This document shows positions 36,901 through 64,000 of a stretch of DNA of 64,000 nucleotides, one piece after another. How positions within the stretch are numbered: the stretch's first letter is position 1; every line of letters begins with the position of its first letter. This stretch comes from Pyxidicoccus sp. MSG2. GTDB lineage: Bacteria; Myxococcota; Myxococcia; Myxococcales; Myxococcaceae. Under the pieces are notes generated by a model. That model was given only the letters and a program-made list of their open reading frames with translations, did no database searches and was not told the origin of the DNA. The DNA lies in contig NZ_JAPNKC010000001.1 in assembly GCF_026626705.1 (NCBI RefSeq), positions 11,060,001 through 11,124,000 of the forward strand, written 5' to 3'. The translations under genes and the position numbers were made by a program.

Positions 36901-37037
36901 GCGTCGTCTCCAGTGCGGCCCCTGGGGTGGGGAGTCGCCATGGGTCCAACGATGTCCGCGAAAAATCTTCCCCACCGGACGGGGAGCTGGACGCGAGGGC
37001 GGCGCAAGGCCCTGAAGCCGCGGGTGATTCCCGGCCT

Positions 37038-37742: not shown

Positions 37743-40172
37743 CTATGCCACCCGCTCCACCGAGGCGCTGGCGGTGAACCGATGCCAGCGCTCCTCGAGC
37801 ACCCGCGCGGCGCCCCGCATCATGAACCACGCCAGCTCGTCCACGTGGCGGTTGCGCCAGCTCTCCAGGGGCGTTCCCTTCACCGCGCGGTTGAAGGAGC
37901 CGAGCGCCGGGCCGCCGTGGACCTGGAAGTTCACCCGATCCGACGCATCGCCGCGCTGGGCTCGTCGCATGGTGTCGACGAAGTACCAGCGGAACACGAG
38001 CGCCATCTTGTGCCGGGAGTTCTTCTCGGCGCGCTCGACCTGAGCCGGGTCCGTGCGCAGGTAGTACGCCTGCGTCTCCGCCCAGACCTCGCCAATGCTC
38101 TTCTTGAAGTACTGCTTCTCGAGCTGCTCGCGCGTCTTGTCGTCGATGGCGTCGAGCGACTCGTGCCGCTGGTACAGCTCGTAGAGCTTGTTGCCCCGGG
38201 CCGGGAAGAAGACGCCCTTGCGGAACACCTGGATGCGGGCGCCCAGCTCGAACATGTCGCCGGCAGGGGCCATGGCGAAGTCCTGGATGTCCGCGTCGGC
38301 GAGCATGTCCTTGACCAGGTCGCTCGTCCCGGCCTCGGGGGTGCACTGGTTGATGGACCCGGTGAGGATGAAGTCCGCGCCCATCGTGAAGGCGGCCGCG
38401 GCGGCCTCGGGCGTGCCGATGCCGCCCGCCGCGCCGACGCGGAGGCGCACGGGGTAGCGGTGCTCGGCCATGGCCTCGTCGCGCAGCTGCATCATCGCGG
38501 GGAGCAGGCTGAAGGCGACGCCCTTGTCGGTGTGGCCTCCCGAGTCCGCTTCGGCGCATATGTCATCGGCCATGGGCAGCCGGGCCGCGGCGCGGGCCTC
38601 CTCGTCGCTGATGAGGCCCTTCTCGTGGAGCATGCGGACGATGCGCTCGGGCGGCGGTGAGACGAACTGGCGCGCCACTTCCGGGCGAGACAGCTTCGCC
38701 ATCAGCCGGTTCGCCGGGCGCGCGCGGTCTCCGGACAGCCGGGCTCCCTTGAGCCGGTAGCGCACCACGGCGGGGGTGAGCACGGTGTACGCGGACGCCT
38801 CCACGCAGCGGACGCCCATGCGCAGGAGGAGGTCGACGGTGCGGTCCTCGACCTCGGGGTGGTTGATGTTGTGGAGGAGGTTGACGCCCCACGGGGTGCC
38901 AGGCGGCAGGGCGGCCTGGATGCGGCGGATGCCGTCCTCGATGCGCTCCAGGCCGAGCCCGCCCGAGCCCAGGAAGCTCAGCAGCCCCGCGCGGCCCATG
39001 CGGATGACCAGCTCGGGGGAGGCGATTCCCTTCACCATCGCGCCCGCGACATAGGCGAGGCGGACGTTGTAGTCCCTCCGGAACTCCGCGTCGCCCAGCC
39101 GCTCCGCGTCGATGCGCGGCCGCGCGCCGGACGAGACGATGGTGCGGTTCGCGATGGGGGCCGGCACCGCGGCGGGAGCGGGCGCCTGGGGAGGCACATA
39201 GTCCCGGAGCGCCGCCTCGGCGTCCGCGACCTTCGTCATCGGCGTCACGGACCTGCCGAGCGTCTGGAAGAACTTCGCGAGCGGCGCGCCGGGGCCAATC
39301 TCGTAGATGCGCTTCGCACGCGCACCCATCGCGCGCATGTTGTCGAGCCACCGCACCGACCCGGCAATCTGCTGGACGAGGTTCTCCGTGAGCGAGCGCG
39401 CCTCGTAGAAGTCACCCGTGAAGTTCGAGGTGACCCGCGTGGCCAGCTCCGGACGGAAGCCCCGCGCGAACGACTCCAGATACGCACGGAACTCCACCTC
39501 GATGGACCGCATGAGGCTGGAGTGGAACGGCGCGCTCACCTGGAGCTGGATGAAGTTCAGCGTGGGCAGGGCCTCGGCCAGCTCGCGCTTCGCCCGGTCG
39601 ATGCTCTCGGCGGTTCCGCTGATGACCACCTGGGCCAGCGAGTTGTGATTCGCCACTTCGGCGCCCGCGGCCCTGGCAATCCGCAGCGCGCCGGACTTCT
39701 CGATGTCGTCGGTGAGGAGCGCCGCCATCGCGCCCCTCCCCTGGGGCACCGCCTGCTGCATCAGCGCCCCCCGCTTCCGGACGATTCGTACCGCGTCCGC
39801 GAACGGGAGCGCCCCCGCGGCGACCAGCGCGGTGTACTCGCCGAGGCTGTGCCCGCCGAAGACGGTGGCCTGGAAGCCGAACGCCTCCACGACGGCACGC
39901 CACGCGGCAATCTCCATCGTGAGGATGCACGGCTGCGTGAACTCGGTGAGGTGGAGCCGTGGGTCCTTCTCGAAGCAGAGCTGGACCAGGTTCTCTCCCA
40001 CCGCGTCGCACGCCTCCTCGAAGGTGCGACGGGCGATGGGCCACTGCTTGTAGAAGTCGGCCCCCATCCCGGGCCGCTGTGAGCCCTGGCCGGGGAAGAC
40101 GACCGCATCCTGGGTACCGGGTAACATGTCCGCGCGAGGCATCATGGTGGGTGGCTCTTGCAGTAGGGACAC
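37743..40172 (-). CDS. Trans-acting malonyltransferase-enoylreductase (AT-ER)
   Basis: The product is 809 aa, a stand-alone AT fused to a PfaD-type ER, a common arrangement in trans-AT polyketide clusters. The AT (about 20-310) has VVFPGQGSQRPGMG, the catalytic serine in GHSLGEYTA (about residue 108) and AEVANHNSLAQVVISG. The ER (about 345-800) is an FMN-dependent barrel (GSGGLGLERIEDGI, GTPWGVNLLHNINHPEVE, RVGAAGGIGTPEAAAAAF, GADFILTGSINQC). It should load malonyl units onto all the AT-less modules upstream and reduce enoyl intermediates in trans. The GTG start directly abuts the TGA of the big PKS gene; ATG 40145 is an alternative. Confidence 0.92.
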   Translation of the reverse strand: MSLLQEPPTMMPRADMLPGTQDAVVFPGQGSQRPGMGADFYKQWPIARRTFEEACDAVGENLVQLCFEKDPRLHLTEFTQPCILTMEIAAWRAVVEAFGFQATVFGGHSLGEYTALVAAGALPFADAVRIVRKRGALMQQAVPQGRGAMAALLTDDIEKSGALRIARAAGAEVANHNSLAQVVISGTAESIDRAKRELAEALPTLNFIQLQVSAPFHSSLMRSIEVEFRAYLESFARGFRPELATRVTSNFTGDFYEARSLTENLVQQIAGSVRWLDNMRAMGARAKRIYEIGPGAPLAKFFQTLGRSVTPMTKVADAEAALRDYVPPQAPAPAAVPAPIANRTIVSSGARPRIDAERLGDAEFRRDYNVRLAYVAGAMVKGIASPELVIRMGRAGLLSFLGSGGLGLERIEDGIRRIQAALPPGTPWGVNLLHNINHPEVEDRTVDLLLRMGVRCVEASAYTVLTPAVVRYRLKGARLSGDRARPANRLMAKLSRPEVARQFVSPPPERIVRMLHEKGLISDEEARAAARLPMADDICAEADSGGHTDKGVAFSLLPAMMQLRDEAMAEHRYPVRLRVGAAGGIGTPEAAAAAFTMGADFILTGSINQCTPEAGTSDLVKDMLADADIQDFAMAPAGDMFELGARIQVFRKGVFFPARGNKLYELYQRHESLDAIDDKTREQLEKQYFKKSIGEVWAETQAYYLRTDPAQVERAEKNSRHKMALVFRWYFVDTMRRAQRGDASDRVNFQVHGGPALGSFNRAVKGTPLESWRNRHVDELAWFMMRGAARVLEERWHRFTASASVERVA

Positions 40173-43100
40173 TCAGCCGGCACGGGCGCGAGCGCCGTTG
40201 ACGCGGCTCTCGGGCGTGACGGGCAAACGCGTGTCGGGTGGCGGGAGGTAGCCCGCCGCGATGCAGTGCTCCAGGTACACGGGGATGAGCTGCGCAATGG
40301 TCGGACAGTCGATTCCCGCCGGCCCGAGGATGCTCCGCGTATAGGCGCAGTTGGCGTACGAGCTCTCTTCGTAGTGAATCTTCCCGAAGATCTCGACGCC
40401 GTACTTGAACATCTCGAGCGTCTGGCTGTCGTACGGCGTGTTCGTCCCCTTGCGCAGGATCTGCCGCTCGTTGGCGAGGCGGAAGAAGTCGTCGATGGAG
40501 GTGAACTGGATGTCGTAGCCGAAGTCGCGGAGATGGTTCACCACGTCGTAGTAGCGCCGGATGTCGGGGTTGGTCAGGTGGTACGTCTCCCGATAGGTCG
40601 GCTGGCGGAGCGACAGGTGGATCATCGCGGCGCTCACGTAGTCGACCGGGGTGATGTCCCAGTGGACGGGGGACATCATCGACAGCCCTGACTCGATGAC
40701 GGTCTTGAAGATGTCGTAGTAGACGCCCTTGACGCTGACTTCGGCGAACGGATACCGGCCCGTGTGCCCGTCGCCCATGATGTTGCCCGGGCGGAAGATG
40801 TTCCAGACGAGCCCCCGCTCCGTCGCCGCGCGGATGAGCTTCTCCGCCTGGTACTTGGTCTCCTGGTAGGGCAGGTGGTCGTAGCCCTGGCCCAGCTCCA
40901 GGTCGCGCTCGGTGAACGGCGGGTTGTTGAAGTTCAGGCGGTCGCCCAGCGCGCTGAAGCTCGAGACGTAGACCATGTAGCGGTGCTTCGTCAGCAGCGC
41001 GAAGTCGATGACCCGGCGCGTGCCCTCGACGTTGATGGGCGCGAGCGCCTCGTAGAAGGTGACGAGCGTGGTCTTCCCCGCGGCGTGGAGCGTGACGTCC
41101 GTCTCCGCCGCGAGGCGCGCGTACGCCGCCGTGTCGAGGCCGAAGCGGTCGAACGTGACGTCGCCGAGGACCGGAGTGACGCGCTGGTGGAACGCCTCGG
41201 TGAGGCGGCCCTGCGGGTCGTACGTCTCCAGGAAGTACTGGATGCGCTTCTTCGCCTGCTCCAGGGACTCGCCTCGCACGAGGCAGGCGATGCGCGCGCT
41301 CGTGGTGGTGAGGAGGTCATGCAGCAGCTTGCCGCCGAGCACGCCCGTCACGCCGGTGATGAAGATGTTCTCCACCGGGAACGGCTCCGTCCGCGTGAGC
41401 TTCTCCGCGGCGGGGGTCGAGGCTGGTACGCCCGCGGTCGCGGCCGGAGCGCTGGCGTGCGCGGCCGGTGCCGCCACGGGAGCGGAGTCCTCCTTGATGT
41501 AGCCGGCGTCCACCACGTGGCTCACGAAGGAGCGGATGGTGTTGTACTCCTGCATCGCCGTCGCCGGGACGCGGGCGCCGTAGACCTTCATCAGCCGGTT
41601 GAGCATCCGCACCGACGCCACGGAGTCGAAGCCGAAGTCGAAGAAGTCGGCGTCCACGTCGAGCTCCGACTCGGGGAGCTTCGTCAGCTCCGCGAAGATG
41701 CTCTTCACCTGGGCCTGGAGCCGGGCCCGGAAGTCCCCGTCACCGGGCGACGGCGCGGCAGGTGCTGCCGCTACAGGGACGGGCTGCACCACCGGGACGG
41801 ACGGCACGACTGGGACGGGCCGCGTCGCGACCGGAGCAGGAGCCACCTTCGCCGGTTCGACCCGGGCCTGCACGGGCTCCACGACCGCGGGCGCTCCTGC
41901 CACGGGGGCCGTCGTGCTCGGCGCGACACCCTGGCGGCGGAACTCCTCGGGCGCAATCCAGTACCGCTCGCGCGCGAACGGGTAGGCCGGCAGGCTGACG
42001 ACACGCCCGCGCCGGGCGCCACGGAGGTCCTCCCAGTCGATGACCCAGCCCTGGCTCCAGAACTCCGCGAGGCGCGTCAGGTAGCCGCGCTCGAAGAGGT
42101 TGCGCAGGTAGTCCCGGTCCGGCTCCGCCTCGCCGGGGATGTCGTCGGTGTCGCGATGTGTGCGCGCCACACCGGCGAAGGACCCCTGCGCCTTCCGGCC
42201 GCCCACGAAGTCCTCGAGTCGGGCCACCAGGTCCTCGTGTGACGACGTCACCACGGCGAGCCGGTGCTCGAAGGCCTCGCGGCCAACCATCAGCGTCCAG
42301 GCGATGTCCGCGAGCGGCGTCTTCATTCCCCGTTCGGAGCGGAGGAACCGGAGCAGGTTGCGCGCGGCCTCCTGGAGCCGCTCCTCGCGCCGCGCCGAGA
42401 GGAGGATGAGCTGCGGCCCCCCGCTCGTCACCGCCGGGCTCGGGGGCTCGGGGTGCTCTTCGATGATGACGTGGGCATTCGAGCCACCCGCGCCGAACGA
42501 GCTCACCGACGCGAGGCGCGGCTGGCCCGCGTCGCCGCCCGCACCGCGCGGCCAGGGCCGGACGTCGCGGACGACGTAGAAGGGGCTGGCGTCGAAGTCG
42601 ATGTTCGGATTCAGCGTCTCGGAGTGCAGCGAGGGGACGAGCGTCTCGTGCTGGAGCTGGAGCAGCGTCTTCACGATGCCGGTGGCGCCCGCGGCGGCCT
42701 CCAGGTGGCCGATGCTCGACTTGGCCGAGCCGATGGCGCAGTAGCGCCGGTCCTGCGTGAAGCGCCGGTAGGCCTTCGTCAGCGCCGCGATCTCGATGGG
42801 GTCTCCGAGCGCGGTGCCCGTGCCGTGGGCCTCCACGTAGCTCAGCTTGCGCGGGTCGACGCCCGCCTCGTCGAGCGCCTCGGTGATGAGCTCCGCCTGC
42901 GCGTTCGGGCTCGGCACGGTGAAGCCGTTGGTGCGGCCGCCGTGGTTGATGGTGCTCGAGCGGATGACGCCGTAGATGCGGTCGCCGTCCTCCCGTGCCT
43001 CCTGGAGGGGCTTGAGGAGCAGCGAGACGACGCCTTCGCCGGGGACGTAGCCGTCACCGCCCGCGCCGAACGAGCGGCAGCGGCCGTCGCTGGACGCGAA

Positions 43101-46100
43101 GCGGCCGTAGGACATGAGCAGGTACTTGCCCGGGTGGATGGACACATTCACCCCTCCTGCGATGGCGTACGCACACTCGCCGCGCCGCAGGCTCTCGCAG
43201 GCCAGGTGGATGGCGGTGAGCGACGCCGAGCATGCGGTGTCCACCGCGAAGCTCGGGCCGTTGAAGCCGAAGTGGTACGAGACGCGATTCGGCACGGCCC
43301 AGTAGCCCGCGATGGGGATGTCGACGAAGAAGCTGTACTCGCCGTAGATGACGCCGGCGAACACGCCCGCGTCCTTCTTGCCCCGGGCGCGCGCGCTCGC
43401 GGAGATGCGCTTCGGCGTGTACCCCGCGTCCTCCAGCGCCGCCCACGAGGTCTCCAGGAAGAGGCGCTGCTGCGGGTCCATCACCTCCGCTTCCTTCGGA
43501 GTGATGTTGAAGAAGCGCGGGTCGAACTTGTCGACGTCGGAGAGGAAGCCTCCCCACTTCGCGTAGGTGGCGCCGGCCTCGTCCTTGTCCTCGCTGAAGT
43601 ACTGGCTGTGGTCCCAGCGGTCCTTCGGTATCTCGACGATGCCGTCCCGGCCGGCGAGGAGGTTCGCCCAGAGCTCGTCATTGTCGCGGGCCATGGGATA
43701 GCGCCCGGCCATTCCAATCACGGCGATGTCCTGGAGGTGCGGCTTCATGGCGTCTCGTCCTGGTGGAGGGCGTGACGCCGGCTGAGGCTCGCGCGCGGGG
43801 GGAGGGGGCGGGGGAGTCGCCGCGGTGGAAGGAACGTTCATTCCACCCGGCGGCCCGTCGAGCACCGCGACGAGCCGCTCCCCGTGGTGCTGCACGAGGT
43901 AGCCGGCCAGGTCGTGGATGGTCTGGTACTCGAAGAACAGCGTCTTGGGCAGCTCGCCGAAGGTGGCTTCGAGCTGCTTGTTGAACTTGTTGATGAGGAC
44001 GGAGTCGATTCCGTAGTCCTGGAGGAGCGCGCGCGTCCGCAGCCGCTCGGGTGGGAGCCGGAAGGCGTCGGCGAGCGCCCGCTTCATGTAGTCCTCTGCC
44101 CGGCGGAGCAGCTCGCCGTCGATGACCTTCGCCTCGGGAGTGGAACGGGGTCCAACCATGACGGCCTCTGTCTGTCGCGGCTTCGGAGGGATGGGCGCGC
44201 TCGCGAGGCGCTCGGACAATTCGGTGAGGGAAGTTCCAACGGAGAAGACGTCGGCCCGGAGGTCGGTGCCCAGCTCGCAGTTCAGGCGCTCGACGAGCGC
44301 TGCGCGTGTCACGTCGTCGAACCCGAGCTCCTCGGAAGGGGCGTGGAAGTCGAGCTCGCCGGCCGCGATGCTGAGCTGCTCGGAGGCGGCCAGCCCTACC
44401 GCTGCGGCGACCGGGGTGCCCACCTCGGGCGCGGCGGGCACCGGGCGGGAGGTCACGACTGCGCTGTCCCCGGGCAGCCAGCACCGGTCGGACTCGAAGG
44501 AGTACGTCGGGAGCGGGATGCGCCTCGGGGCCGTTCCGGCGTAGAGGCCGGTGAAGTCGAACGCGGCACCCGACGCCCACGCCGTGGCCGTCGCATGCGG
44601 GTCGGCATCCGGCGAGAGGCGCACGCGGTCGGGCTGCGCGTCGGGGTCCGTGGTTCCCCCGTACACTCCCGGCGCGCTGGCACCCGAGGCCACGGCGGCG
44701 AGCTTCGTCCGGAGCTCTTCGACCGAGCCCGCCACGAGCACCATCCGGTGCTCGAAGGTGGCACGCCCCAACTGAAGGGTGGCCGCGATATCCGGGAGGT
44801 CGGTGCCCGGATGCTCCGCGAGGAAGCGCCCGAGCTCCTTCGCGTAGCGCCGCACGGACTCCTCCGTGCGCGCCGACAGCGGGACGAGCACCTGACGGGA
44901 CGGGCCGCTCGTGCGCGGCCGCGAGTCCACGTGCTCCTCCACGACCAGGTGGCAGTTCGTGCCGCTGAAGCCGAACGAGCTCAGCGCCGCGCGGCGAGGC
45001 CCGGTGCTCTCCCAGTCCCTCGGCTCCGTGTTGACGTAGAACGGCGTCGAGTCGAAGTCGATGAGGCGGTTGGGCGTGTGGAAGTGGAGCGACGGAGGCA
45101 GCCGCCGCTCGCGCAGCGCGAGCAGGACCTTGATGAGGCTCGCGACGCCCGCGGCATGTGACGGATGGCCGATGTTCGACTTGATGGAGCCAATCGCACA
45201 GAACCGGCGCTGGTCGGTGTACCGGCGGAACGCCGCCGTGAGCGCTTCGATTTCGATGGGGTCGCCCAGCTTCGTCCCGGTGCCGTGGGCCTCGATGTAG
45301 CCGAGCGTCTCAGGGCGGATGCCGAAGCGCTCGTAGACCTCGACCTCCAGCTCCGTCTGCGACAGGGAGCTGGGCGCGGTGATGCCGTTCGTCCGCCCGT
45401 CCTGGTTCACCGCGATGCCCTTGATGACCCCGTGGATGGAGTCGCCGTCGGCCAGAGCCCGCGCGAGCGGCTTGAGGACGACGACGCCCGCGCCCTCGCC
45501 AATCACGAACCCGTCGCCGGAGTCATCGAACGACTTGCAGCGGCCACCCGGCGAGAGCATCCCGAGCGATGACGCGAGCAGGTGGTACTCGGGCGTCACG
45601 AAGACGGACACGCCACCGGCGAGCGCGAGGTCGCACTCGCCTCTCGCGAGGCTCTGACAGGCCTGGTGGAGCGCGACGAGGGATGACGAGCACGCCGTGT
45701 CGACGGCGAAGCACGGCCCCTTGAGGTTCAGGTAGTAGGAGACCCGCGCCGGCAGGATGGCCAGGCTGTTCCCCGTGAACACGTGATTCGAGCCGAACAG
45801 CCCGCGCTCACGGATGCGCGTCGCGTAGTCGGACGTGGTGGCCCCGACGAAGACGCCACAGCGCGCGCGTGCGAGCCTGCTCGCGTCCAGCCCCGCGTCC
45901 TCGAGCGCCTTCCAGCTCTCCTGGAGGAAGATGCGCTGCTGCGGGTCCATGAAGTCCGCTTCCGCGGGGACGATGTTGAAGAAGAGCGGGTCGAACCGGT
46001 CGACGTCGGAGAGATAGCCGCCCCACTTCGAGTACGTCTTCCCCAGGACGGGCGGCCACGGTTGGTAGTGGTCGGCGACGTTCCATCGCTCGGGCGGAAC

Positions 46101-49100
46101 CTCCGTCACCGAGTCACGGCCGGCGGCGAGGTTCGCCCACAGCTCGCGGTAGTCGCGCGCCCCCGGGAACCGGCCCGACATGCCGATGACGGCGATGTCC
46201 AGCGGCTGGCCGGGGAGGGGACTCGGTGCACTCGACACGACGGGCAGTGGTGCCTCGATTGGTGCGGGGGGCACTGGAGTCGTGGGTGCCTCGGCCTGAA
46301 GCCGTGCTCCCTGCGCCGCCGCGTGACGGGCCAGGGCTCGCACGGAGGGGTGGTCGAACAGCACCGTGGACTTGAGGCTCAGCCCGAAGCGCGTGTTGAG
46401 GCGCTCGACAATCTTCACCGCGAGGATGGAGTCGACGCCGTACTCGGAGAAGGACCGCTCGGGCCGGATGTCGTCCTGGCTGGCCCCCAGCCCCTCGGCC
46501 ACGAGCACGGCGATGGCGCGCTCCAGCGCCTCGGGTCGCTCCCGGGCTGGGGCCGCGACGGCACTCGCTTCGGTCCTCGCCGCCGACGGAACCGTGGCGG
46601 CAGCTGGTACGGCGGTGCTCGTCGCAGCCGCTTCGGACCTCATCGCGGACTGCACCGCGCCGACACCATCACTCCCGGCGACAATGACCCGCTGGCTCAG
46701 GTCGGCGTCCGCGGACAAGCCCGGACCGTAGGCGGTGAAGCCCTTGAAGCCCGTGCGGGTGAGCGTCTCACGCCAGCCGTCGACGGAGAGGAGGGGAGAA
46801 TTGCGGATGCGTCGCTCCGGGTCGCGGTAGCGGTGCCAGCCGTCGAGCAGCCCGAAGGTCAGGGCCAGGGCCTCGGTGTTCGTGGTCGCCTCGCTCAGCA
46901 CGAGGAGGCCGTCGGGCACGAGCAGTTGCTTGATTCGCGTCAGGGCCTCGCCGATGTCCGCCACCGCGTGCACGGCGTTCGCGGAGAACACCGCGTCGAA
47001 GGTCCCCGGTGAAAACCCCTGGGCGACGGGGTCCTTCTCGAGGTCGAGGATGCGGAACCGCGTGAAGGGGTACGCCTTGCCGAACGTCTCCCGGCCGTGC
47101 GCGACGAACCCGCCGGAGATGTCGGTGTAGTGGACCTCGACATCGGCACCGAGACGGGCGAGGGCCTCCAGCACCGTCCTCGACGTGCCTCCCGTGCCGG
47201 CGCCAATCTCCAGGATGCGGAACGGGCGCCGCTCCGACGTGGCGCGGACCTGGACGGCGGAGGTGAGAATCCGGGCCACCAGGTCGTTGGTGAAGCTGTA
47301 CGCGCGGCTGTCGCGGTAGATGGCGCTGGTGAGCTCCAGGCTCGCGTTGGGGAAGAGGACCGCCGTCGCCGCGCGCCCGCCCCTCAGCGTCTCCGGGTAC
47401 GCGTCCAGGCAGGTGTCGAGCAGGCGCAGGTAGGGTGTCAGCTCCGGGAAGCGGGTCAGCAATTCCTCGCGGAGCCGCGCCGGGTCCTCGGCCGCTCCGA
47501 GGACACGCACGTGCTCGCCCTCGCGGGCAATCGCACCATGCCGCTCGAGAATCTCCAGACACGCGTCGAAGAAGCGGCCGAAGGTCTCCCGGACACCGAG
47601 CTGCTCCTTCAGCGTCCGGACGTCGCGCGTCTCGCCCTCGCTGGGGAGGCCCATCGTCCGGAATCGCCGGTAGAGCGCCGCCGCCGCGTAGTGGCCGAGC
47701 TTTCGCTGGCCCCGCTCCAGCTCCTCGGTCGTCGGGGTGAGGTGCTGCTCGAAGGCGCTGCGAACCTGGGCTGCGAAGCCCGTGTCGGCCACGGGTGCGG
47801 CGGTGGGGACGTCGATCCAGAACCGCTTCCGCTCCAGCGGCTGACCCGGGAGCGGGACGCGCTTCCGGGGACCGCCATTGAGCGCGCTCCAGTCCGCGGC
47901 TCCGCCTCGGACCCACAGCGCTGCGACGCCTTCCAGGTCTCCGGACCGGTAGCGGTCCGCGAGCGTCTCGGCGGCTCCGCCTGTCTCCGCGGTCCCGGTG
48001 AACACGCCGCTCCCGCTTCCGGCGAGGTGCCGTTCGAGGCGGTCCGCGGCCTCGGCGACGCTCTCCGCGACCAGCGCGAGGCGGGCGTCCATCGCGGGGC
48101 GGCCGACCTGCAGCGTGCGCGCGATGTTGGCGAAGTCCATCCGGTCGGTGGTGCGAAGGTACCGGGCAAGCCGCGCCGCGTAGACGCGGAGCCGCTCCGG
48201 CGACCGTGCCGACAGGACGAACACCTCTCGCTCCCGTGACGGAGCGGCGGCGGGCGAGTCGACATATTCCTCGACGACGACGTGGGCGTTCGAGCCTCCC
48301 GCGCCGAACGAGCTCACCCCCGCGCGGCGAGGCAGCTCGCCCTCGGGCCCCACCGGGCGCGGCCACGGCTCGGCGACCTGGGGCACGCGGAACGGCGTCG
48401 ATGCGAAGTCGATGGCGGGGTTGAGCGTCTGCGAGTGGAGCGAGGGGGCAATCCGTCCGTGCCGCAATTGCAGGAGCGCGCGAGTCACCGCCGCGACGCC
48501 CGCCGCTGCCTCCAGGTGGCCGATGTTCGACTTCACCGAGCCCACCGCCAGCGGGCGCGTGCGTCCCGTGAAGGCGCGGCTGAGCCCCACGATCTCGACA
48601 GGGTCTCCGAGTGACGTGCCCGTGCCGTGCGCCTCGATGTACCCGATGCTGTCGGGCTCGACTTCCGACGCCTCCAGCGCGCGGCGGACGGCCTCCGCCT
48701 GCGCAACGGGGTGGGGCACGGTGTAGCCGGCCGCGCGCCCTCCGTGGTTGACCGCCGTCCCACGGATGACGCCGTGGATGGTGTCGCCATCCGCGAGCGC
48801 GCGCTCCAGCGGCTTGAGGAAGAGCGCCCCGACGCCCTCACCGGGAACATAGCCGTCGCCCCCGGCGCCGAAGGAGCGGCACCGTCCGTCCGAGGACGTC
48901 ATGTTCATCCGGCGCAGGAGCAGGTACTTGTCCGGATGGAGCAGGAGGTTGACGCCACCGGCAATCGCGGCGTCGCACTCGCCCCGCGTGATGCTGGCGC
49001 ATGCGAGGTGGAGCGCGGTCAGCGACGAGGAGCAGGCGGTGTCGACGGCCATGCTAGGCCCGACGAAGTCGAAGAAGTAGGAGACGCGGTTCGCCGTCGA

Positions 49101-55200: not shown

Positions 55201-58147
55201 ATGCGAACAGGGACTCGGGTGCGATGTCGCCGCGCTCCACATCGATGCTTCGCGCGGTGACGCCGCGATACTCGCCCGCGATGGCCGTCACGAGCCCATG
55301 GAGCGGCGCCCCGGCCAGGGTCTCTCCGGAGAGGAGTCCCGCCGTGACGTGAAGCAGGAGGAAGGGCGCGGCCCCGCGCTCCGCCAGAGCTCCCTGGTAG
55401 AAGCCGATTCGCCCGTACTCGACGCGCCCGCCGTCGTCTGCGCGGGTGAGGTCGCAAAGGTCCAGCACGCCCGCGACGTCGCGGACGCTGGTCAGGACCT
55501 CGCGAGCCAGCGCGGCGCCCGCATCGAGGTCATCCCTGTCCAGAGCCGGGCGGCCGGAGGCGGCGGCGCGGTTGATTCGGCCGACCTCGATGATGCGCAG
55601 CCGGTCGGGGACGAGCGTCGCAATCGCGTGACGAAGCGACTCGGGCGCGGAAGCGTCATGGAGGATGACGAGGCGCCGGGCCGAGAGGGGGGGGGATGCG
55701 CCTGGGAGCGGCGCGGCACGCCAGTCCCTGGCGTGGCAGCTCGGGCGAGCAATGGGGACATCCGCCTCGGGCCGTGGCGCAGGTCGCACCTGGCTCTCGT
55801 CCTTCTCGACCTCTTCGATCCAGTAGCGCTCCCGCGCGAAGGGGTACGTCGGGAGGGGCACCCTCCGCCCGTCGTTCGCACGGAGCTGGCCCCAGTCAAT
55901 CTCGGAGCCCGACGTCCAGAAGGACGCGAGCCGGTCCAGCTTCCCGCCCTCGAACAGCATGCGGACATACGCCTGGTCCTCGGCGTCGGACCCTCGCAGG
56001 CGCGGGGAGTTGCTCGTCTCCGACCCCGCATGCACGCCTTCCCCGAGCTCGCCCCGCTCGACGAAGGCCGTGAGCTTCGCGCGCAGCTCGTCAGCGTCCC
56101 GGACGAGGAGCGCGAGCCGCTCCGGCATCGCCTCACGGGCGACCTGGAGCGTGTACGCCACATCCCCGAGCGGCGGCGGGTTCTCGGACAGCCGTTCCAG
56201 GTGGTGGGCCGCGTGCTCTCGCAGCCGCTCACGGTTCTTCGCCGACAGGAGCACGAGCTCCCTCCGGGCGGATGCGGGGGCCACGCTCCGGGCCTCCACG
56301 TACTCCTCGAGGATGACGTGCCCGTTCGAACCGCCCGCGCCGAAGGAGCTCACCGCGGCGCGGCGCGGAACCTCTTCGCCGTCCGCACGGACGGGCCGGC
56401 GCCACTCCATGGGCTCGCGCACGACGTGGAACGGCGTGCTGGCGAAGTCGATGTGCGGGTTGGCGGGCGTGCTGTGAAGGGACGGGACGAGCGTCCGGTG
56501 CTCCAGTTGCAGCAGCACCTTCGTCAGCGCGGCAATCCCGGCCGCCGACTCCAGGTGCCCGATGTTCGACTTCACCGACCCGATGGGGCAGACGCCAGTC
56601 CCGGGCATGTGCTCGCGGAATGCCTGCGCGAGTCCGGCAATCTCGATGGGGTCGCCGAGCGCCGTCCCCGTCCCGTGGGCCTCGATGTAGCTGATGGTCG
56701 AGGGCTCGATTCCGGAGCGCTCCAGCGCGCGGCGGATGAGCGCGGCCTGGGCGTTCGGGTTCGGTACGGTGAAGCCGTTCGCGTGGCCGCCATGGTTGAT
56801 GGCAGTCCCCTTGATGACCGCATAGATGTGGTCTCCGTCGCGCTCCGCGTCCTCCAGCGTGCGCAGCACCACGGCGCCCACGCCTTCACCAGGGACGTAG
56901 CCGTCGCCGCCCTCGCCGAAGCTCCGGCACCGCCCGTCGCTCGAAACGAACCGCCCCTGGCTGAGCGCCAGGTACTTGTACGGATGCGTGGACAGATTCA
57001 CGCCGCCCGCGAGGGCCAACCGACAGTCGCCGCTGCGCAGACTCTCGCAGGCGAGGTGGAGCGCGGTCAGCGAGGACGAGCACGCCGTGTCCACCGCGAG
57101 GCTCGGGCCCTGGAGGTCGAAGAAGTAGGAGACGCGGTTCGCGATGCTCCAGTGCGCGGAGACCGGCAGCGGTCCGCGGCCGAGGCGCGCCTCCTCGGCG
57201 CCGTAGAGCTGGTAGTTGCTCCACATCACGCCCACGAAGACGCCGGCCTCCTCGGGGCGGAGCCCTCCCCGGCGCATGCCCACGCGCGTGTAGCCCGCGT
57301 CCTCGAGGGCTCCCCAGGCGGTCTCCAGGAAGAGCCGCTCCTGTGGGTCCAGCAGCTCGGCTTCTCGTGGCGAGATGTTGAAGAAGAGCGCGTCGAACTT
57401 GTCGACGTCGTCGAGGAAGCCGCCCCACTTGCTGTAGGCGCCGCCCGGCTTCTCCCGGTCGGGGTCGAAGTAGCGGGAGTGGTCCCAGCGGTCCCGGGGA
57501 ATCTCCGTGATGCAGTCGCGCCCCTCGGCCAGCACCCGCCAGAAGTCCCGGAGGTTGCGCGCGCTGGGATATCGGCCACTCACGCCGACGATGGCGATGT
57601 CGGCCGGGCCGGAGGACCGGCTGGCCCGCTCACGGGATGGCGCGGGCGCCGCGCGCGGAGCACGGGGAGTGGGCGCCTGCTGACGCGGCTCGGCTGGAGG
57701 TGGCGTCGGGATGGCCCGCTCGGCGGGGGCTGGCATCGACACGGGCCGCGCGTCGAGCAGCTCCCGCAGCCGGTCCGCGTGGTTCTCGGCGAAGTACGTG
57801 GCGAGCGCCTCGAGGTTGCCGTGCTCGAAGAAGATGGTTGGGAACAGCTCCACGCCCAGCTCGCGTTCGAGCTCCCGCGTCGCCCCGAGGAGCGACGCCG
57901 AGCTTGCCCCCAGGTTCATGAACCCGCGGTCCATCGGAATCTCTCCGCTGAGCTGGAGGACCCGGCGGAGTCGTCCCTCAAGGAACCCGCGGACCCGCAC
58001 CTCGAAGGGTTCTGACGCCGTATGGGCGCGGGACTCCGGAGGACTCGCTGTCCCCGTGTCGAGCTCGGCGAGCAGCTCCATGGCCTCTTCGACCGAAAGC
58101 TCCTGCCGTGCGACGCGCTCGTAGATGTCCCGTTCGGTCAGCCTCAT
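52211..58147 (-). CDS. Trans-AT polyketide synthase subunit (ACP-KS-KR-ACP-KS)
   Basis: The product is 1978 aa. The order is: N-terminal helical docking segment (1-30, LTERDIYERVARQELSVEEAM); ACP with serine near residue 80 (LGASSASLL); KS 185-617 (DTACSSSL about 356); a structural (psi) KR half about 690-1000; two 20-residue repeats about 1003-1042; catalytic KR (SGGTRGLG about 1073, LFSSVSAV, LSDYALANS about 1238); ACP (YGADSVLI about 1380); KS 1478-1895 (DSACSSSL about 1638, EAHGTGT, GHLLSAAG). A proline-rich 80-residue tail with a duplicated LRFEPL motif ends it. There is no AT. AGG-rich sequence precedes the ATG, and the gene begins 12 nt after the previous PKS stop. It accepts the chain from the right-hand subunit and passes it to the DH of the terminal one. 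Confidence 0.95.
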   Translation of the reverse strand: MRLTERDIYERVARQELSVEEAMELLAELDTGTASPPESRAHTASEPFEVRVRGFLEGRLRRVLQLSGEIPMDRGFMNLGASSASLLGATRELERELGVELFPTIFFEHGNLEALATYFAENHADRLRELLDARPVSMPAPAERAIPTPPPAEPRQQAPTPRAPRAAPAPSRERASRSSGPADIAIVGVSGRYPSARNLRDFWRVLAEGRDCITEIPRDRWDHSRYFDPDREKPGGAYSKWGGFLDDVDKFDALFFNISPREAELLDPQERLFLETAWGALEDAGYTRVGMRRGGLRPEEAGVFVGVMWSNYQLYGAEEARLGRGPLPVSAHWSIANRVSYFFDLQGPSLAVDTACSSSLTALHLACESLRSGDCRLALAGGVNLSTHPYKYLALSQGRFVSSDGRCRSFGEGGDGYVPGEGVGAVVLRTLEDAERDGDHIYAVIKGTAINHGGHANGFTVPNPNAQAALIRRALERSGIEPSTISYIEAHGTGTALGDPIEIAGLAQAFREHMPGTGVCPIGSVKSNIGHLESAAGIAALTKVLLQLEHRTLVPSLHSTPANPHIDFASTPFHVVREPMEWRRPVRADGEEVPRRAAVSSFGAGGSNGHVILEEYVEARSVAPASARRELVLLSAKNRERLREHAAHHLERLSENPPPLGDVAYTLQVAREAMPERLALLVRDADELRAKLTAFVERGELGEGVHAGSETSNSPRLRGSDAEDQAYVRMLFEGGKLDRLASFWTSGSEIDWGQLRANDGRRVPLPTYPFARERYWIEEVEKDESQVRPAPRPEADVPIARPSCHARDWRAAPLPGASPPLSARRLVILHDASAPESLRHAIATLVPDRLRIIEVGRINRAAASGRPALDRDDLDAGAALAREVLTSVRDVAGVLDLCDLTRADDGGRVEYGRIGFYQGALAERGAAPFLLLHVTAGLLSGETLAGAPLHGLVTAIAGEYRGVTARSIDVERGDIAPESLFALLASEAERIAPGATGLATAGRQVTTGADPSATAKGSLSDERHIATNAARAATTAASPTDERQVRYRSGQRQVPALREVTLKPGLSVAADRAYVISGGTRGLGAAFARFLIERGARRLALLGAQALPPRSEWARVAGEDSSDGQKVRAIQELEARGATVLLYTGRITDRAALRRYFAEVRTSLGPIAGVLHCAGAVSDESPAFLHKTRRGFERVLEPKLEGTHVLADLLEDERPDFFVLFSSVSAVVPSLAVGLSDYALANSFLDRFAEYQHRHGRTWFRSFNWPSFRDTGFGETTTDAYRSAGLAALSVEQGFALLDGALGITGEPVVLPSIGTPVLTSEAPPRAVAAAPPARSATVASGTGGSRAAAYEALVRIFSAELKLAPERFRGDVRFEEYGADSVLIASAVKQIEKVIGAAFEPGFLLEHPTLDSLSALLVERHPERFTAAPHAPPEEPPRTVPVSAPRPAPAQVPVRAVESPAPSPSASPDRTVPIAIVGMACRFPGAPDKERFWDNLARGECAIREVPRERWDPALFYSAEPGPGRTNSKWGGFVDGIDLFDPAYFRINESLALQMDPLQRLMLETSLLATLDAGYTRDELSNRRVGVYVGTRVGNYMSRIEQPEKGTIVGVGQNFIGARISDYFNWRGNNVVIDSACSSSLVSVHLACQALREREIDAAVAGGVDVMLDELTYLTLSAAGALSPDGRCYTFDERANGFVPGEGVGALMLKRLDDALRDGDRIQAVIRGSAVNNDGRTMGITTPNMEAQVEVIEAALAKSGLSAADVSYVEAHGTGTMIGDPIELKALATVFRRATEARGFCAVGSVKTNLGHLLSAAGIAGLVKTALSLDRKQLPPTLHCDRPNPRFAFDQSPFYVNRELRPWTLPTGQLRRAGISAFGFGGTNCHMVLEEHVAPYEPRRTPLPPPAFNKRSFLLPARRRNDAGVPLAAAPAPSHEAPLLRFEPLSSAPGDAAPVLRFEPLVTERPGRLPSTGAKAP
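52262..52337 (-). repeat. 48-bp-period direct repeat encoding the duplicated LRFEPL motif
   Basis: A 28-bp segment at 52262-52289 recurs at 52310-52337 with three differences, period 48 bp (16 codons). It encodes LRFEPL twice in the C-terminal tail of the 1978-aa PKS, at the split KS/DH junction. Confidence 0.8.
55021..55140 (-). repeat. 60-bp in-frame tandem repeat inside a PKS linker
   Basis: 55021-55080 and 55081-55140 are imperfect tandem copies of a 60-bp unit, encoding ERHIATNAARAATTAASPTD and GRQVTTGADPSATAKGSLSD-type 20-residue units. Partial further copies are suggested by ERQVRYRSG after them. It sits between the structural and catalytic halves of the KR region. Confidence 0.75.
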
Positions 58148-58159
58148 ACCTGTGTCCTG

Positions 58160-61100
58160 TCAGTCGACGTTCCGCGCATGGCGGCCGAGCTCGAGCGCCC
58201 GGTCCGGCGTGAGCTCTCCGCGGCTCAGCCGGAGGAGCAGCTCGTGCCGCGACAAGCGCTCTTCACCGGCCCGACCGAGCCAGTAGGAGCGCCGCCGGAA
58301 GCGCGTCGGGGGAAGGGGGCTGCGCGTCTGTGGGAGCCCGTTGCGAATGAACTGCTCCAGCACCACGTGGCAGTTCGTGCCGCCGAAGCCGAAGGAGCTG
58401 ATGCCCGCCCGACGGACGCCGCTCGGCGGAGTCCAGGGCGAGGTGGTCGTGTTCGGGCGGAACGGAGACTCCTCGAACCGGAACCGGGGATGCGGACGGT
58501 CGCAGTTCAAGGTGGCCGGAAGCACTCCGCGCTCCACCGCGAGGGCCGTCTTCAGGAACGCCGTCACCCCGGCCGCGTGCAGCGAGTGGCCGACGTTCGA
58601 CTTGACGCTCCCGAGCGCGCACCAGCGCTCTGCCCCCCGGCCGAAGGCCTTGGTCGCGGCGCGAATCTCGATGGGGTCTCCGAGCAGCGTCCCCGTGCCG
58701 TGGGCTTCGAGGTACGTCACGTCGGTGGGCGCGAGGCCGCTCGCTTCGAGCGCCGCTGTAAGGAGCTCGGTCTGGCGCTCCTGGTTCGGCGTGGTCAGCC
58801 CCATCGTGCGGCCGTCGTTGTTCACCGCCGAGCCGGCGACGAGGGCGAGGATGGGGTCTCCGTCGCGCAGCGCCGCTTCGTAGGACTTGAGGAGGACGAG
58901 CCCCGCGCCCTCGCCCAGCACGAAGCCGTTCGCCCGCTCGTCGAACACGTACGAGTTGGGACTGTCGGTGAGCACGCCCGCGCGCGCGAAGCCCGTGAAG
59001 TAGAACGGGTCGAGGATGATCTCCACCCCGCCCGCGATGGCCATCTCCGCTTCGCCGGAGAGGATGTCGCGGCAGGCCTGGTGGATGGCCACGAGCGACG
59101 AGGAGCACGCCGTGTCCACCGTCTGCGAGGAGCCGGTGAACCCGTAGTGGTCCGAGATTCGAGCGGCGAGCATGTTCTGGATGGTGCTCACCACCATCCG
59201 TCCGGCGACCTCGTCGGGGACACTGGCCCGGTGCCGCTTGAGGTAGGCGCTCTCCGCGCCGCCGATGAAGACCGCGACCCGGCGCCCGAGCAGCTCCTCG
59301 TTGCGATAGCCGGCCGCGTCGAACAGTTCGCGGCTCAGCTCCAGGAGGAACCGTTGCTGCGGGTCCATCAAGAGCGCGTCCGTGTCGGACACGCCGAACG
59401 CCGAGGCGTCGAAGAGGTCGATACCTTCGACGAACCCGCCGAAGCGGATGTGGCGCAGGTCTCCGGGAAGGCCACCTGCCGTGCGGAAGTCCTGGAGCCG
59501 GTCCTCGGGCACCTCGCGCGTGAGGCGGCGCGCGGCGGTGAGGTTGCGCCAGAACTCCTCGAGGTTCGCCGAGAGAGGCTGCCGGCCCGCCATCGCGACC
59601 ACGGCGACGCGGGGGGCGCGACCGTGCGCCGTGGGAGCGAAGCGGGATGCGGGCGACGCAATGGCGATGGACGGATGCGTCGGAGTGTCGGGCGCGAAGC
59701 GCGTGGATGGCGCGACGCTGGCCACGGAGGGAGAGGCCGAGGACTCCGGCGAGAAGCGGGCGGGCGGCTGGGCCGAAGGTGCGGGAGCGGGGCTCTCGGA
59801 AAGGAAGGCCCGAGGCTCGGGAGGGGCCACTCCGGTCGGGGCCGCCGAGGTCGCCACCCCTTCGTCGATGAGGTACGTGGCGAAGTCCCGAATCGCCGGG
59901 TGCTCGACGATGGCGTTCGGCTCGACCGCGCGGCCGAACAGCGCCTCCACGCGACTGAGGACGGTCATCATCATCACCGACTCGACCCCGTAGTTGCTGA
60001 CCGGCACCTCGGGGTCCAGCTCCGCCACGGCGACCTTCAGGAGCTCGGCGTAGACCGAGAGGAGCTCCTTCTCGACGTGCGTGCGCAGGGCTGTCGCGAG
60101 GGGCGGCGCGGACTCCGCCGGCCGGGGCGCTGCCGGACGGCTGGCCTCCTGGGGACGCCGCAGCACGAGGTCTCGCATCACGACGAGCGCCCGGCCTGCA
60201 TCGTCCAGGAGCGTCACGTCGAGCCGCTGGGCCTCGTTCCGGCGCACCCACGCCCAGCACGCGCCGGCCGGCATGCCGTACAGCTCCACCGCGCCCAGGG
60301 CGAACGGGAGTGGCGGCTGGCGTGCGTCGCCGCCTTCATCGAAGAGCACGAGCGCCGTCTGGAGTGCTCCGTCGAGGAGCGAAGGGTGGAGCTGGAGTGC
60401 CGGAGCCGCCGCGACAGCGGGAAGCTCCAGGCGTGACAGCGACTCCGCGCCGGCCCGGTACACTTCGACGATGGACTGGAACGCGGGGCCGTATTCGAAG
60501 CCGTGCAGCTGGAACCGGGCGTAGAGGGCGTTACGGCCCAGGCGCTCCGTGGCGCGCGCCTTCAGGGCCGCGAGGTCGACGGGGGAGGGCGGAGCGGTCA
60601 CCGGGGCGTCGCGCAGAACCCGGCCGCGGGCGAAGACGACGTCGCTGGCCCCACCTGCTTCGACCAGGGAGAACTCCAGGTCGCGCTCGCCCGGATTCAG
60701 GCGGACCTGGAAGCGGCACCCATCGTCACCGGCGACGAGCGGTCGCATCCAGACGAAGTCGCGAAGTGCGGCCGCGTGTTCGCCCGACAGCTCCGTGGCT
60801 GCTCTCGCCGCTTCGATGGACGCCACGGCCGGGAGGAGCTTCCGCCCCCCGACGACATGATGCGCGAGAAAGGGCTCGTCGCCGGTGAGCGCCGTGACGA
60901 AGCGCTGCTCCCGCAGCGTCGAGGTGTTCGTGTGCACCAGCGGGTGCAGCACGGCCGTGGTCGCCGCCGTGGGGGGCGCGTCGGGCGCCGTCGGAATCCA
61001 GCAGCGGCGGCGCTCGAACGGATAGGTCGGCAGCGCGACGCGGTGCCACGGTCGCTCAGCATGCAGCGCGCCCAGGTCCACCGAGACGCCGCGCACCCAG

Positions 61101-64000
61101 AGCGCCGCGAGCTTGTCGAGGTTGCGGCTCGCGACGAGGCCCGTGATGTAGTCGCGGTCCTCCTGGCTCTCGCCCAGCAGGGTGTCGCGCCGCTCCTTCG
61201 TGCTTCCCCGTGCGACTCCCGCAGCACGCGAGGGCGCGGAGAGGAACGACTCGAGCCGGCTCACCAGCTCCGCACGCGAGCCCGCGACGATGGCGAGGCG
61301 CTCGACCAGCTCGGTGCGCCCGATGGCGAGGGTCCCCGCGATGTCCCTCAGGGAATGGCGTGCCGTGTGCTCCGCGGCGAGCGCCCTGTGCAGCCGGCGG
61401 GCAGCTTCCACGAGCTGGGGTTCGCTTGCGGCGGACAGGGTGACCAGCTCCGGCCGAGCCTCGTCGGTTGCCACGCGGTCCCACTCGGCGGACCACTGGA
61501 GGATGGCGTGCGCATTCGAGCCGCCCGCGCCGAAGGAGCTGAGCCCGGCGAAGCGGGAGCCCTCGCGCTGTGGGAAGTCGAGGACCTCTTCCGCGACGAA
61601 GAATGGCCCGGCCGCGAAGTCGATGTCGGGGTTCTTGGTGCGACTGTGGAGGTTCGGAGGAATCTTCCCCCGTTGGAGGCAGAGGGCCGCCTTGATGAGC
61701 CCCGCGATGCCCGCGGCGGCTTCCAGGTGGCCGATGGCCGACTTCGCCGAGCCGATGGCGCAGACCTGCTTCTGGCCTGCCGCGCCAGCGTGCGCGAACG
61801 CCTGGGTCAGCCCCTGGATTTCGATGGGGTCACCCAGCGCGGTGCCCGTCCCGTGGCACTCGATGTAGCCGAGCTCCGTCGGAGCCACGCCCGAGCGCGC
61901 GAGCGCCGTCTCGACGAGGCGCCCCTGCTGCCGGGGGTTGGGCACCGTGAACCCGGAGGCACGCCCCCCGTGGTTGACGGACGTGCCGCGAATCACCGCG
62001 TGGATGGTGTCGCCGTCCGCGAGCGCCTGCTCCAGGGGCTTGAGCAGCACGGCGCCCACGCCTTCACCGGGCACGTAGCCCGTGCCTCCTTCGCCGAAGC
62101 TCCGGCACCGCCCGTCCGTCGACAGGAAGCGGAGCTGGCCGAGGTACAGGTACTTGTCCGGATGGAGCGAGAGGTTCACGCCGCCGGCCAGCGCCATGGA
62201 GCTCTCACCGTCGAGGATGCTCTGGCAGGCGAGGTGCACGGCGGTGAGCGACGACGAGCACGCCGTGTCGAGGGCGATGCTCGGACCGGTGAGGTCGAGG
62301 AAGTAGGAGACGCGGTTGGCAATCTGCCAGTAGAGCGAGCCGGGCCCCGCATAGCGTCCATGGAAGGTGCCCTGCTCGGCGGTGATGACCGAGTACTCGT
62401 TCCACATCGCGCCGACGAAAAGGCCGACGTTCGCCTCGCGCAGGAGCTTCCGGTTTCCGTAGCCGGCGTGCTCCAGCGTCTCCCAGGCGCACTCGAGGAA
62501 GAGGCGCTGCTGGGGATCCATCTGCTCCGCCTCGCGGACGGAGATGTTGAAGAAGAGCGGGTCGAACTTGTCGACGTCGTCGATGAAGCCGCCCCAGCGC
62601 CCATAGGTCGTGTCCGCGTGGGTCGGGTCGGCATGGAAGTAGCGGCGGTAGTCCCACCGGTCGGCGGGAATCTCGGTGATGCAGTCGCGGCCGGCGAGGA
62701 GGTTGCGCCAGTAGGTCTCGACGTCGGGCGCCTTCGGGAAGCGACCGCTCATGCCGATGACGGCGATGGCCCGCTCCGGCACGGAGGCGGCGGACCTGGT
62801 CGGGCGGGAGGGCTTCTCCGCTCGTGGCTGGGGCGCGGGCACGGGTACGGCGGGAGTGCTCGCTCGCGGTGCGCGTGACGCCAGGTAGACGGCCAGCTCG
62901 CGGAGGTTGGGTCGCTCGAAGAGGAGCGTCGGGGAGAGGCCGTCGTACCGCCGGTCCAGCTCCTTCATGATGTCCTTCACCATGATGGACTCGACGCCGA
63001 GGGCGAAGAACGACTCCTCCCGGTCGACCGCCGAGGGCTCCGCGCCAATCCGCGCGGCGATGAGCCCGGTCAGCCAGCCTTCGAGTGCGGCCGGATCGCT
63101 CGGCTGCGTGGCGGGTGTGGCGGCACGACTGTCGGCCTCGGGAGTGGGAGCAACGGGTGCGGGCGCGACGTCCGCGGCGATGAGCCGCTCCCCGAAGGGA
63201 TGACCGTCCCCAGGACCCAGGACGATGATTCGCTCCTCGGGCCCGGTCAGCGCCGCGTCGAGCGCGGCGAACGCGGGCGCGTCCTCGAGGAGGGTGATTC
63301 CCCTCGCTGCGAGCTGCTCGATGGCCCGCTCGTCGCGCCCCATCCCACCGTCCGCCCAGAGGGTCCAGTTCACGGCCAGGCTGCGCCCCGGACGGCCCCG
63401 CGCCCTGCGGAAATCCATGAACGCGTCGAGGAACGCATTGGCCGCGGCGTAGTCGACCTGACCGACGTTGCCGACCTCCGCGACGACCGACGAGTAGACG
63501 CTGAAGAAGTCGAGCGGCTCGGTCGCGGTGAGCTCGTCCAGGAGCCATGCTCCGAGGACCTTCGGGCGGAGCACACGGTCGAACGAGTCGGGCTCCTTGC
63601 TGAAGATGAGCCGGTCCGCGAGGACGCCCCCGGAGTGGATGACTCCGTGGATGGGACCCAGGCTCTCCCTCACTCGCGCGAGGGTTGCCGCGAGCGCGTC
63701 ACGTTCGGTGACGTCGGTCGGGAAGTAACGGACGTGGGCGCCGGTGCCGCTGACCTCCAGTTCCCGGATGACCTGCTCGATGTCCGGTGACAGCGGAGAG
63801 CGCCCCACGAGGGCGATGCGTGCGTTCCGCGTCCTCGCGGCGAGGTGCGCCGCGGTCTTCCGGCCAATCCCACCGGCACCTCCGACGACGACGTAGACAC
63901 CACCGTCACGATACGGAGATGCACTCCGGCCCAGTCGCGCACGTGCCACGCGGGGAACGAAGCGACGGCCCTTCCTCCAGACCACGACATGCTCGGAGCC
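58160..64000 (-). CDS. Trans-AT polyketide synthase subunit, 3' part (KR-ACP-KS-DH-ACP-KS)
   Basis: The gene runs off the right edge; about 1946 residues are visible. In order of translation: KR (VVVGGAGGIG near 63,880; VDYAAANAF near 63,450); ACP (LGVESIMV near 62,995); KS (DTACSSSL near 62,260, ECHGTGT, KSAIGHLEAA); DH (HVVGGRKLLP near 60,845; HPSLLDGALQ near 60,370); ACP (YGVESVMM near 59,980); C-terminal KS (DTACSSSL near 59,105, EAHGTGT, KSNVGHSLHAAG). A short helical segment ends the protein (LSRHELLLRLSRGELTPDRALEL) and resembles the N-terminus of the next subunit, as four-helix-bundle docking partners do. No AT is present. The DH module has no KR of its own, so it may dehydrate the hydroxyl made by the preceding KR. 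Confidence 0.93.
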   Translation of the reverse strand, partial: GSEHVVVWRKGRRFVPRVARARLGRSASPYRDGGVYVVVGGAGGIGRKTAAHLAARTRNARIALVGRSPLSPDIEQVIRELEVSGTGAHVRYFPTDVTERDALAATLARVRESLGPIHGVIHSGGVLADRLIFSKEPDSFDRVLRPKVLGAWLLDELTATEPLDFFSVYSSVVAEVGNVGQVDYAAANAFLDAFMDFRRARGRPGRSLAVNWTLWADGGMGRDERAIEQLAARGITLLEDAPAFAALDAALTGPEERIIVLGPGDGHPFGERLIAADVAPAPVAPTPEADSRAATPATQPSDPAALEGWLTGLIAARIGAEPSAVDREESFFALGVESIMVKDIMKELDRRYDGLSPTLLFERPNLRELAVYLASRAPRASTPAVPVPAPQPRAEKPSRPTRSAASVPERAIAVIGMSGRFPKAPDVETYWRNLLAGRDCITEIPADRWDYRRYFHADPTHADTTYGRWGGFIDDVDKFDPLFFNISVREAEQMDPQQRLFLECAWETLEHAGYGNRKLLREANVGLFVGAMWNEYSVITAEQGTFHGRYAGPGSLYWQIANRVSYFLDLTGPSIALDTACSSSLTAVHLACQSILDGESSMALAGGVNLSLHPDKYLYLGQLRFLSTDGRCRSFGEGGTGYVPGEGVGAVLLKPLEQALADGDTIHAVIRGTSVNHGGRASGFTVPNPRQQGRLVETALARSGVAPTELGYIECHGTGTALGDPIEIQGLTQAFAHAGAAGQKQVCAIGSAKSAIGHLEAAAGIAGLIKAALCLQRGKIPPNLHSRTKNPDIDFAAGPFFVAEEVLDFPQREGSRFAGLSSFGAGGSNAHAILQWSAEWDRVATDEARPELVTLSAASEPQLVEAARRLHRALAAEHTARHSLRDIAGTLAIGRTELVERLAIVAGSRAELVSRLESFLSAPSRAAGVARGSTKERRDTLLGESQEDRDYITGLVASRNLDKLAALWVRGVSVDLGALHAERPWHRVALPTYPFERRRCWIPTAPDAPPTAATTAVLHPLVHTNTSTLREQRFVTALTGDEPFLAHHVVGGRKLLPAVASIEAARAATELSGEHAAALRDFVWMRPLVAGDDGCRFQVRLNPGERDLEFSLVEAGGASDVVFARGRVLRDAPVTAPPSPVDLAALKARATERLGRNALYARFQLHGFEYGPAFQSIVEVYRAGAESLSRLELPAVAAAPALQLHPSLLDGALQTALVLFDEGGDARQPPLPFALGAVELYGMPAGACWAWVRRNEAQRLDVTLLDDAGRALVVMRDLVLRRPQEASRPAAPRPAESAPPLATALRTHVEKELLSVYAELLKVAVAELDPEVPVSNYGVESVMMMTVLSRVEALFGRAVEPNAIVEHPAIRDFATYLIDEGVATSAAPTGVAPPEPRAFLSESPAPAPSAQPPARFSPESSASPSVASVAPSTRFAPDTPTHPSIAIASPASRFAPTAHGRAPRVAVVAMAGRQPLSANLEEFWRNLTAARRLTREVPEDRLQDFRTAGGLPGDLRHIRFGGFVEGIDLFDASAFGVSDTDALLMDPQQRFLLELSRELFDAAGYRNEELLGRRVAVFIGGAESAYLKRHRASVPDEVAGRMVVSTIQNMLAARISDHYGFTGSSQTVDTACSSSLVAIHQACRDILSGEAEMAIAGGVEIILDPFYFTGFARAGVLTDSPNSYVFDERANGFVLGEGAGLVLLKSYEAALRDGDPILALVAGSAVNNDGRTMGLTTPNQERQTELLTAALEASGLAPTDVTYLEAHGTGTLLGDPIEIRAATKAFGRGAERWCALGSVKSNVGHSLHAAGVTAFLKTALAVERGVLPATLNCDRPHPRFRFEESPFRPNTTTSPWTPPSGVRRAGISSFGFGGTNCHVVLEQFIRNGLPQTRSPLPPTRFRRRSYWLGRAGEERLSRHELLLRLSRGELTPDRALELGRHARNVD

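Follow-up and report, generated by a model that had tools for sequence, protein, structure and literature searches.

Gene and domain content of the locus

We analyzed a window of 64,000 nucleotides, which spans positions 11060001-11124000 of a 13.19-Mb contig in the 13.34-Mb genome of a Myxococcus/Pyxidicoccus species, a predatory soil bacterium. Its right part (37743-64000, minus strand) encodes 7 KS (KS2-KS8), 3 KR, 2 DH, and 1 C-MT domains, 8 serine-bearing ACPs, an AT-ER, and a terminal TR, with no cis AT that has an active site. Apart from the activity of the KRs (see below), translation and domain scans returned exactly the counts of the first-pass annotation, although a ninth, dead ACP in module 7 had been missed. 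The window cuts PKS1, and the right flank completes this gene to 68476 (window numbering), adding KS1, a dead AT relic, and DH1. With KS1 in the flank, the earlier count of seven KS is right for the window, whereas the whole line has eight; a genome search likewise placed 8 KS at the locus. The full line comprises 8 KS, 3 DH, 3 KR, 1 MT, 8 serine-bearing ACPs plus the dead one, the terminal TR, and the discrete AT-ER.

All four biosynthetic genes lie on the minus strand. PKS1 (58160..64000, continuing past the window to 68476; 3438 aa) has the order KS1-[dead AT]-DH1-KR1-ACP1-KS2-DH2-ACP2-KS3. Within the window it contributes KR1 (63197..63916), ACP1, KS2 (61487..62779), DH2 (60167..60919; HVVGGRKLLP and DGALQ, in a module without a KR), ACP2, and the C-terminal KS3 (58337..59629), which is split from ACP3 on PKS2. 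PKS2 (52211..58147; 1978 aa) is ordered docking-ACP3-KS4-KR4-ACP4-KS5, with KS4 at 56318..57601, KR4 at 54248..54952 (GGTRGLG; the catalytic Ser, Tyr, and Asn are present), and KS5 (52508..53755) at its C-terminus, where the protein breaks. PKS3 (40173..52214; 4013 aa) reads DH5-ACP5-KR5-KS6-MT6-ACP6-KS7-dead ACP7-ACP7-KS8-ACP8-TR. DH5 (51360..52214; HRVHGVRILP, Asp present) forms its N-terminus, past the break after KS5, and is followed by KR5 (49575..50309), KS6 (48255..49538), the C-methyltransferase MT6 (46665..47717; EIGAGTG; Methyltransf_12, 7.9e-15), KS7 (44925..46205), the dead ACP of module 7 (44220..44387), and KS8 (42450..43733). In the dead ACP, Ser is replaced by Asp or Glu in all five species that carry the cluster, and its dN/dS is 0.09-0.14. 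The catalytic Cys-His-His is intact in KS7 and KS8 and, indeed, in all 8 KS of the five species, and HxxxGxxxxP is kept in DH1, DH2, and DH5.

The line ends in a C-terminal SDR-type TR (40215..41381), a release domain of predicted activity that follows an ACP and carries GxxGxxG (GVTGVLG) and YxxxK (YQETK). It matches NAD_binding_4 (3.2e-48) and TIGR01746 (1.5e-57), the latter with 195.5 bits, just below the cut-off of 213.35. The AT-ER (37743..40172; 809 aa) is a discrete malonyltransferase with GHSLG, fused to a PfaD-type enoylreductase; it matches Acyl_transf_1 (2.9e-31) and, above the cut-off, TIGR02814 (654 bits), and shares 75-89% identity across the four orthologous clusters. The PKS1-PKS2-PKS3-AT-ER genes nearly abut or overlap (gaps of 12, -4, and 0 bp). 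Ordered domains in ORFs of this length (1978-4013 aa), retained across five genomes at a dN/dS of mostly ~0.06-0.47, go far beyond what chance would produce.

As the first-pass annotation had advised, sequence to the right of the window was analyzed; besides completing PKS1, it extends the cluster to ~75.8 kb with tailoring genes. These encode (window numbering) a P450 (68740-70059), a type II thioesterase (70201-71091, plus strand), an FMO (71110-72405), an LPG-synthase-TM/methyltransferase fusion (72417-74129, plus strand), and a GT87 glycosyltransferase (74166-75722, plus strand). The P450, the FMO, the fusion protein, and the GT87 would tailor the product, and the thioesterase would serve in proofreading. 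A motif scan of the FMO found no Baeyer-Villiger FxGxxxHxxxx pattern, so we do not claim an oxygen insertion. The only significant PDB sequence match of the GT87 is the mannosyltransferase 9dm5; its AlphaFold model (pLDDT 42) was unusable.

Borders, distribution, and conservation of the island

The cluster lies on an island that runs from ~37.69 to 75.81 kb (window coordinates), with a dnaJ-like gene flanking one side and a HAD gene the other. The left border, at ~37.69 kb, is directly left of the AT-ER, and the HAD gene is already flank. The nearest relative, G095 (97% identity in mutS2), has a clean empty site in which the dnaJ-like gene is followed by 64 bases and then HAD; the island therefore measures 38.1 kb. 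The HAD gene (37038-37685), the ATP-grasp gene, and the M4 peptidase gene were considered as cluster genes and excluded, since they adjoin dnaJ/mutS2 in the empty-site genome. A 603-aa ORF at 35374-37185 of the window, which has no significant Pfam or NCBIfam match, is kept beside HAD in relatives and also belongs to the flank. No integrase gene was seen in the island annotation.

The distribution of the island was derived from four of its genes, with TR, FMO, and GT87 searched genus-wide and the membrane/methyltransferase fusion family-wide. The former three share one set of five carriers among the 27 genus genomes, and of 96 family genomes these same five have the fusion. Besides the source genome, the carriers are Pyxidicoccus fallax DSM 14698 (G098), G105, G120, and G101, all of Myxococcus/Pyxidicoccus, and the order of the PKS and AT-ER genes is the same in these four. 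P. fallax was the sole named carrier in a contig search with the AT-ER, and plasmid searches returned distant PKS/NRPS matches only. The flanking NtrC and mutS2 genes, by comparison, are present in 27/27 genus genomes. As a separate observation, what lies at the island site differs among members of the genus, and non-PKS genes fill up to ~40 kb between the mutS2 and NtrC homologues (G114, G109, G120, and G098).

Across the four other genomes, TR identity ranges from 94 to 82%, and the identity of the island drops in the same order as that of the flanks. Purifying selection acts on every gene tested. Because carriers and non-carriers are interleaved, repeated loss, or exchange through the homologous flanks, is likely. 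In the 9.49-Mb closed genome of G101 (G101:C1, ~3317976-3347946), the P450 is missing and a frameshift in KS7 splits PKS3, so the pathway is dispensable there and the G101 cluster may be decaying.

Trans-AT nature of the line and a dead AT relic

None of the modules contains an active AT, and the sole AT in the line is a relic, whose active site reads GNTAA, GSTAA, GAAAA, or GESLT across the five species; GHSxG is lost in all five, in several ways. The one discrete AT of the cluster, that of the AT-ER, is present in all five genomes. With no live AT in the line itself, the AT-ER would load malonyl units onto every module, and it could also saturate one double bond. In addition, trans-AT KS are the top-scoring PDB matches for most KS in the line (KS3 less clearly), and the RhiE-like KS linker PF22336 was found in PKS2 and PKS3. 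We also considered KS1 as a cis-AT KS and dropped this assignment; trans-AT KS score higher, although the AT relic follows.

Pfam finds no AT in residues 451-955 of PKS1. However, when solved KS-AT proteins such as CurL served as the reference, a profile of seven homologues aligned to three of their parts: the KS-AT linker, the N-terminal half of the AT up to and including the active-site elbow, and the post-AT linker. In the AlphaFold model of this region (pLDDT 55.5), KS-AT structures top the match list, with E values no better than 5e-3. The dN/dS of the dead AT is 0.21-0.32. A homologous dead-AT region recurs at ~30% identity after the first KS in a different trans-AT cluster, found in two Corallococcus-like genomes (G057:C13 and G063:C13), where the first KS together with the dead AT is ~35% identical to KS1 and the AT relic; the first-KS groups of the two clusters form a clade (support 100/99). 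The Corallococcus-like cluster shares the AT-ER and differs in its HMGS-cassette-like genes, its NRPS module, and a first module without DH and KR.

We infer that KS1 and the AT relic represent an old start-module unit whose AT has turned structural, this role being a prediction. A dead AT that is under selection beside the first KS, and common to a second trans-AT cluster, bears on the origin and the start of such lines. Further dead ATs were seen elsewhere: in PKS ORFs of ~1580 aa from Myxococcus with small genomes, GFGVG or GAGVG stands where the AT would have GHSxG.

A predicted dehydrating bimodule and the proposed product

The gene and domain content observed here, together with the active-site motifs, the borders, the distribution, and the purifying selection, points, with high probability, to a functional and conserved trans-AT type I PKS cluster with reductive release. 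The first-pass annotation had read the locus as a trans-AT line of this kind, and the domains, the AT-ER, and the TR bear this out.

We propose that a starter is taken by KS1 and followed by eight extensions; no loading module or domain was found in the line. Module 1, with DH1 and KR1, would introduce a double bond. Module 2 would leave either a keto group or an olefin (DH2 without a KR), because KR-less DHs differ among known lines: those of bryostatin and corallopyronin were deemed inactive, and an olefin is found in sorangicin (PMC8739492). The unit added by module 3 would remain unprocessed.

PKS2 and PKS3 share the layout KS4-KR4-ACP4-KS5//DH5-ACP5-KR5, which is split over two proteins, and both KS4 and KS5 keep C-H-H. 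Type B dehydrating bimodules have the order KS-KR-ACP-KS//DH-ACP-KR and install a 2E,4Z-diene, and their KRs are usually A-type (PMC8456789). By its domain order, and with elongation by both KS assumed, the pair of modules 4 and 5 is predicted to be such a bimodule, matching the described ones also in the break after the second KS and in the two C-H-H triads. The first-pass annotation had recognized the split KS|DH-ACP-KR module and assigned it one double bond; the split holds, and the bimodule layout predicts a conjugated diene instead. The KRs are known here from their sequence, and KR5 departs from the type B bimodules in that its catalytic Ser is replaced by Ala in 4/5 species (the source genome and three orthologues; Ser is kept in G101). 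KR5 is possibly impaired, and of the three KRs first described as active the number stands, while the activity of KR5 is doubtful. Furthermore, KS3 and KS5, both located at protein ends, group as a clade of their own (support 100/99).

Module 6 would add an alpha-methyl-beta-keto unit and modules 7 and 8 beta-keto units, consistent with the methylated unit, the unprocessed units (here two), and the TR release proposed earlier. The chain on the last ACP would be R-diene-CO-CHMe-CO-CH2-CO-CH2-CO-S-ACP, and the TR would reduce it off as the aldehyde R-diene-CO-CHMe-CO-CH2-CO-CH2-CHO or the corresponding alcohol. With an acetyl starter, this would be a C18 chain plus one methyl. The predicted chain end follows from co-linearity, and it could be altered by trans-acting enzymes or by the behavior of KR5, module 2, or KS3.

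Two unusual outcomes, taken jointly, appear rather unlikely. A C2-C7 aldol reaction of the tri-keto aldehyde end could give a dienyl-substituted 2,4-dihydroxy-methylbenzaldehyde. Benzaldehydes of this type are familiar from fungal non-reducing PKSs, and one would here come from a bacterial modular line. The GT87, in turn, could glycosylate the product in the membrane with the aid of the membrane-domain/methyltransferase fusion, and the result would be a membrane glycolipid and not a soluble antibiotic. More generally, the reductively released poly-keto end and the conserved GT87/membrane-protein pair lead to predictions unlike known myxobacterial products.

Comparison with known systems

The island holds a trans-AT PKS cluster that is so far an orphan and would release its product through a TR; its machinery is of a well-known kind. 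Literature searches found no matching described pathway, in keeping with the initial impression of an unrecognized product. The nearest plausible candidate among known clusters is that of pyxipyrrolone (BGC0001751, Pyxidicoccus sp. MCy9557). It comes from the same genus group, and the antiSMASH reports in PMC8636102 and PMC10731318 list it as a weak neighbor of trans-AT clusters. Nevertheless, we consider it very unlikely that the island is its cluster or a close variant and thus already known. Both belong to Pyxidicoccus, and the literature links pyxipyrrolone to trans-AT clusters. The pyxipyrrolone paper is cited, in PMC8262917, for a beta-branching (HMGS) cassette, which is absent from the island. 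The genome has a single HMG-CoA synthase gene, at 10830616, ~270 kb from the island. Moreover, scans of the island returned no NRPS domain, although an amino acid would be the expected source of the nitrogen in a pyrrolone.

P. fallax, which carries the cluster, is known for gulmirecins, disciformycins, and angiolams. All of these are macrocyclic, a structure not predicted for a line that ends in a TR. An HMGS cassette is required for myxovirescin, and the other TRs of the family, on ORFs of ~1,520-1,580 aa that we take to be myxalamid-type, are just 30-34% identical to the island TR. It is very improbable, then, that the island makes gulmirecin/disciformycin, angiolam, myxovirescin, myxalamid, or another described Myxococcus/Pyxidicoccus polyketide. 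A decaying relic whose product is no longer made could account for the dead AT, the dead ACP of module 7, the Ser-to-Ala change in KR5, the frameshift and P450 loss in G101, and the absence of the island from 22/27 genus genomes; we judge this reading to have very little chance of being correct, as 4/5 clusters are free of frameshifts and stops, all KS triads are intact, and dN/dS is low even in the dead AT and the dead ACP. The preferred reading, an orphan and probably functional pathway with exact borders, applies to P. fallax DSM 14698 and four further sequenced species, and these borders together with a natural empty-site control genome make product assignment straightforward by comparative metabolomics and one deletion.

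Individual parts of the line have known counterparts. A TR also ends the myxobacterial megasynthases of the myxalamid and myxochelin type, whereas the island TR, at the low identity given above, sits after a trans-AT PKS module. For the PKS1 KS-DH region and the KS searched, the top PDB score was that of the KS-DH-ACP-KS core of Brevibacillus brevis orphan BGC11 (7zma/7zmc/7zsk), part of the score margin arising from the two KS in the entry. This similarity is local and the module order differs; BGC11 is likewise an orphan.
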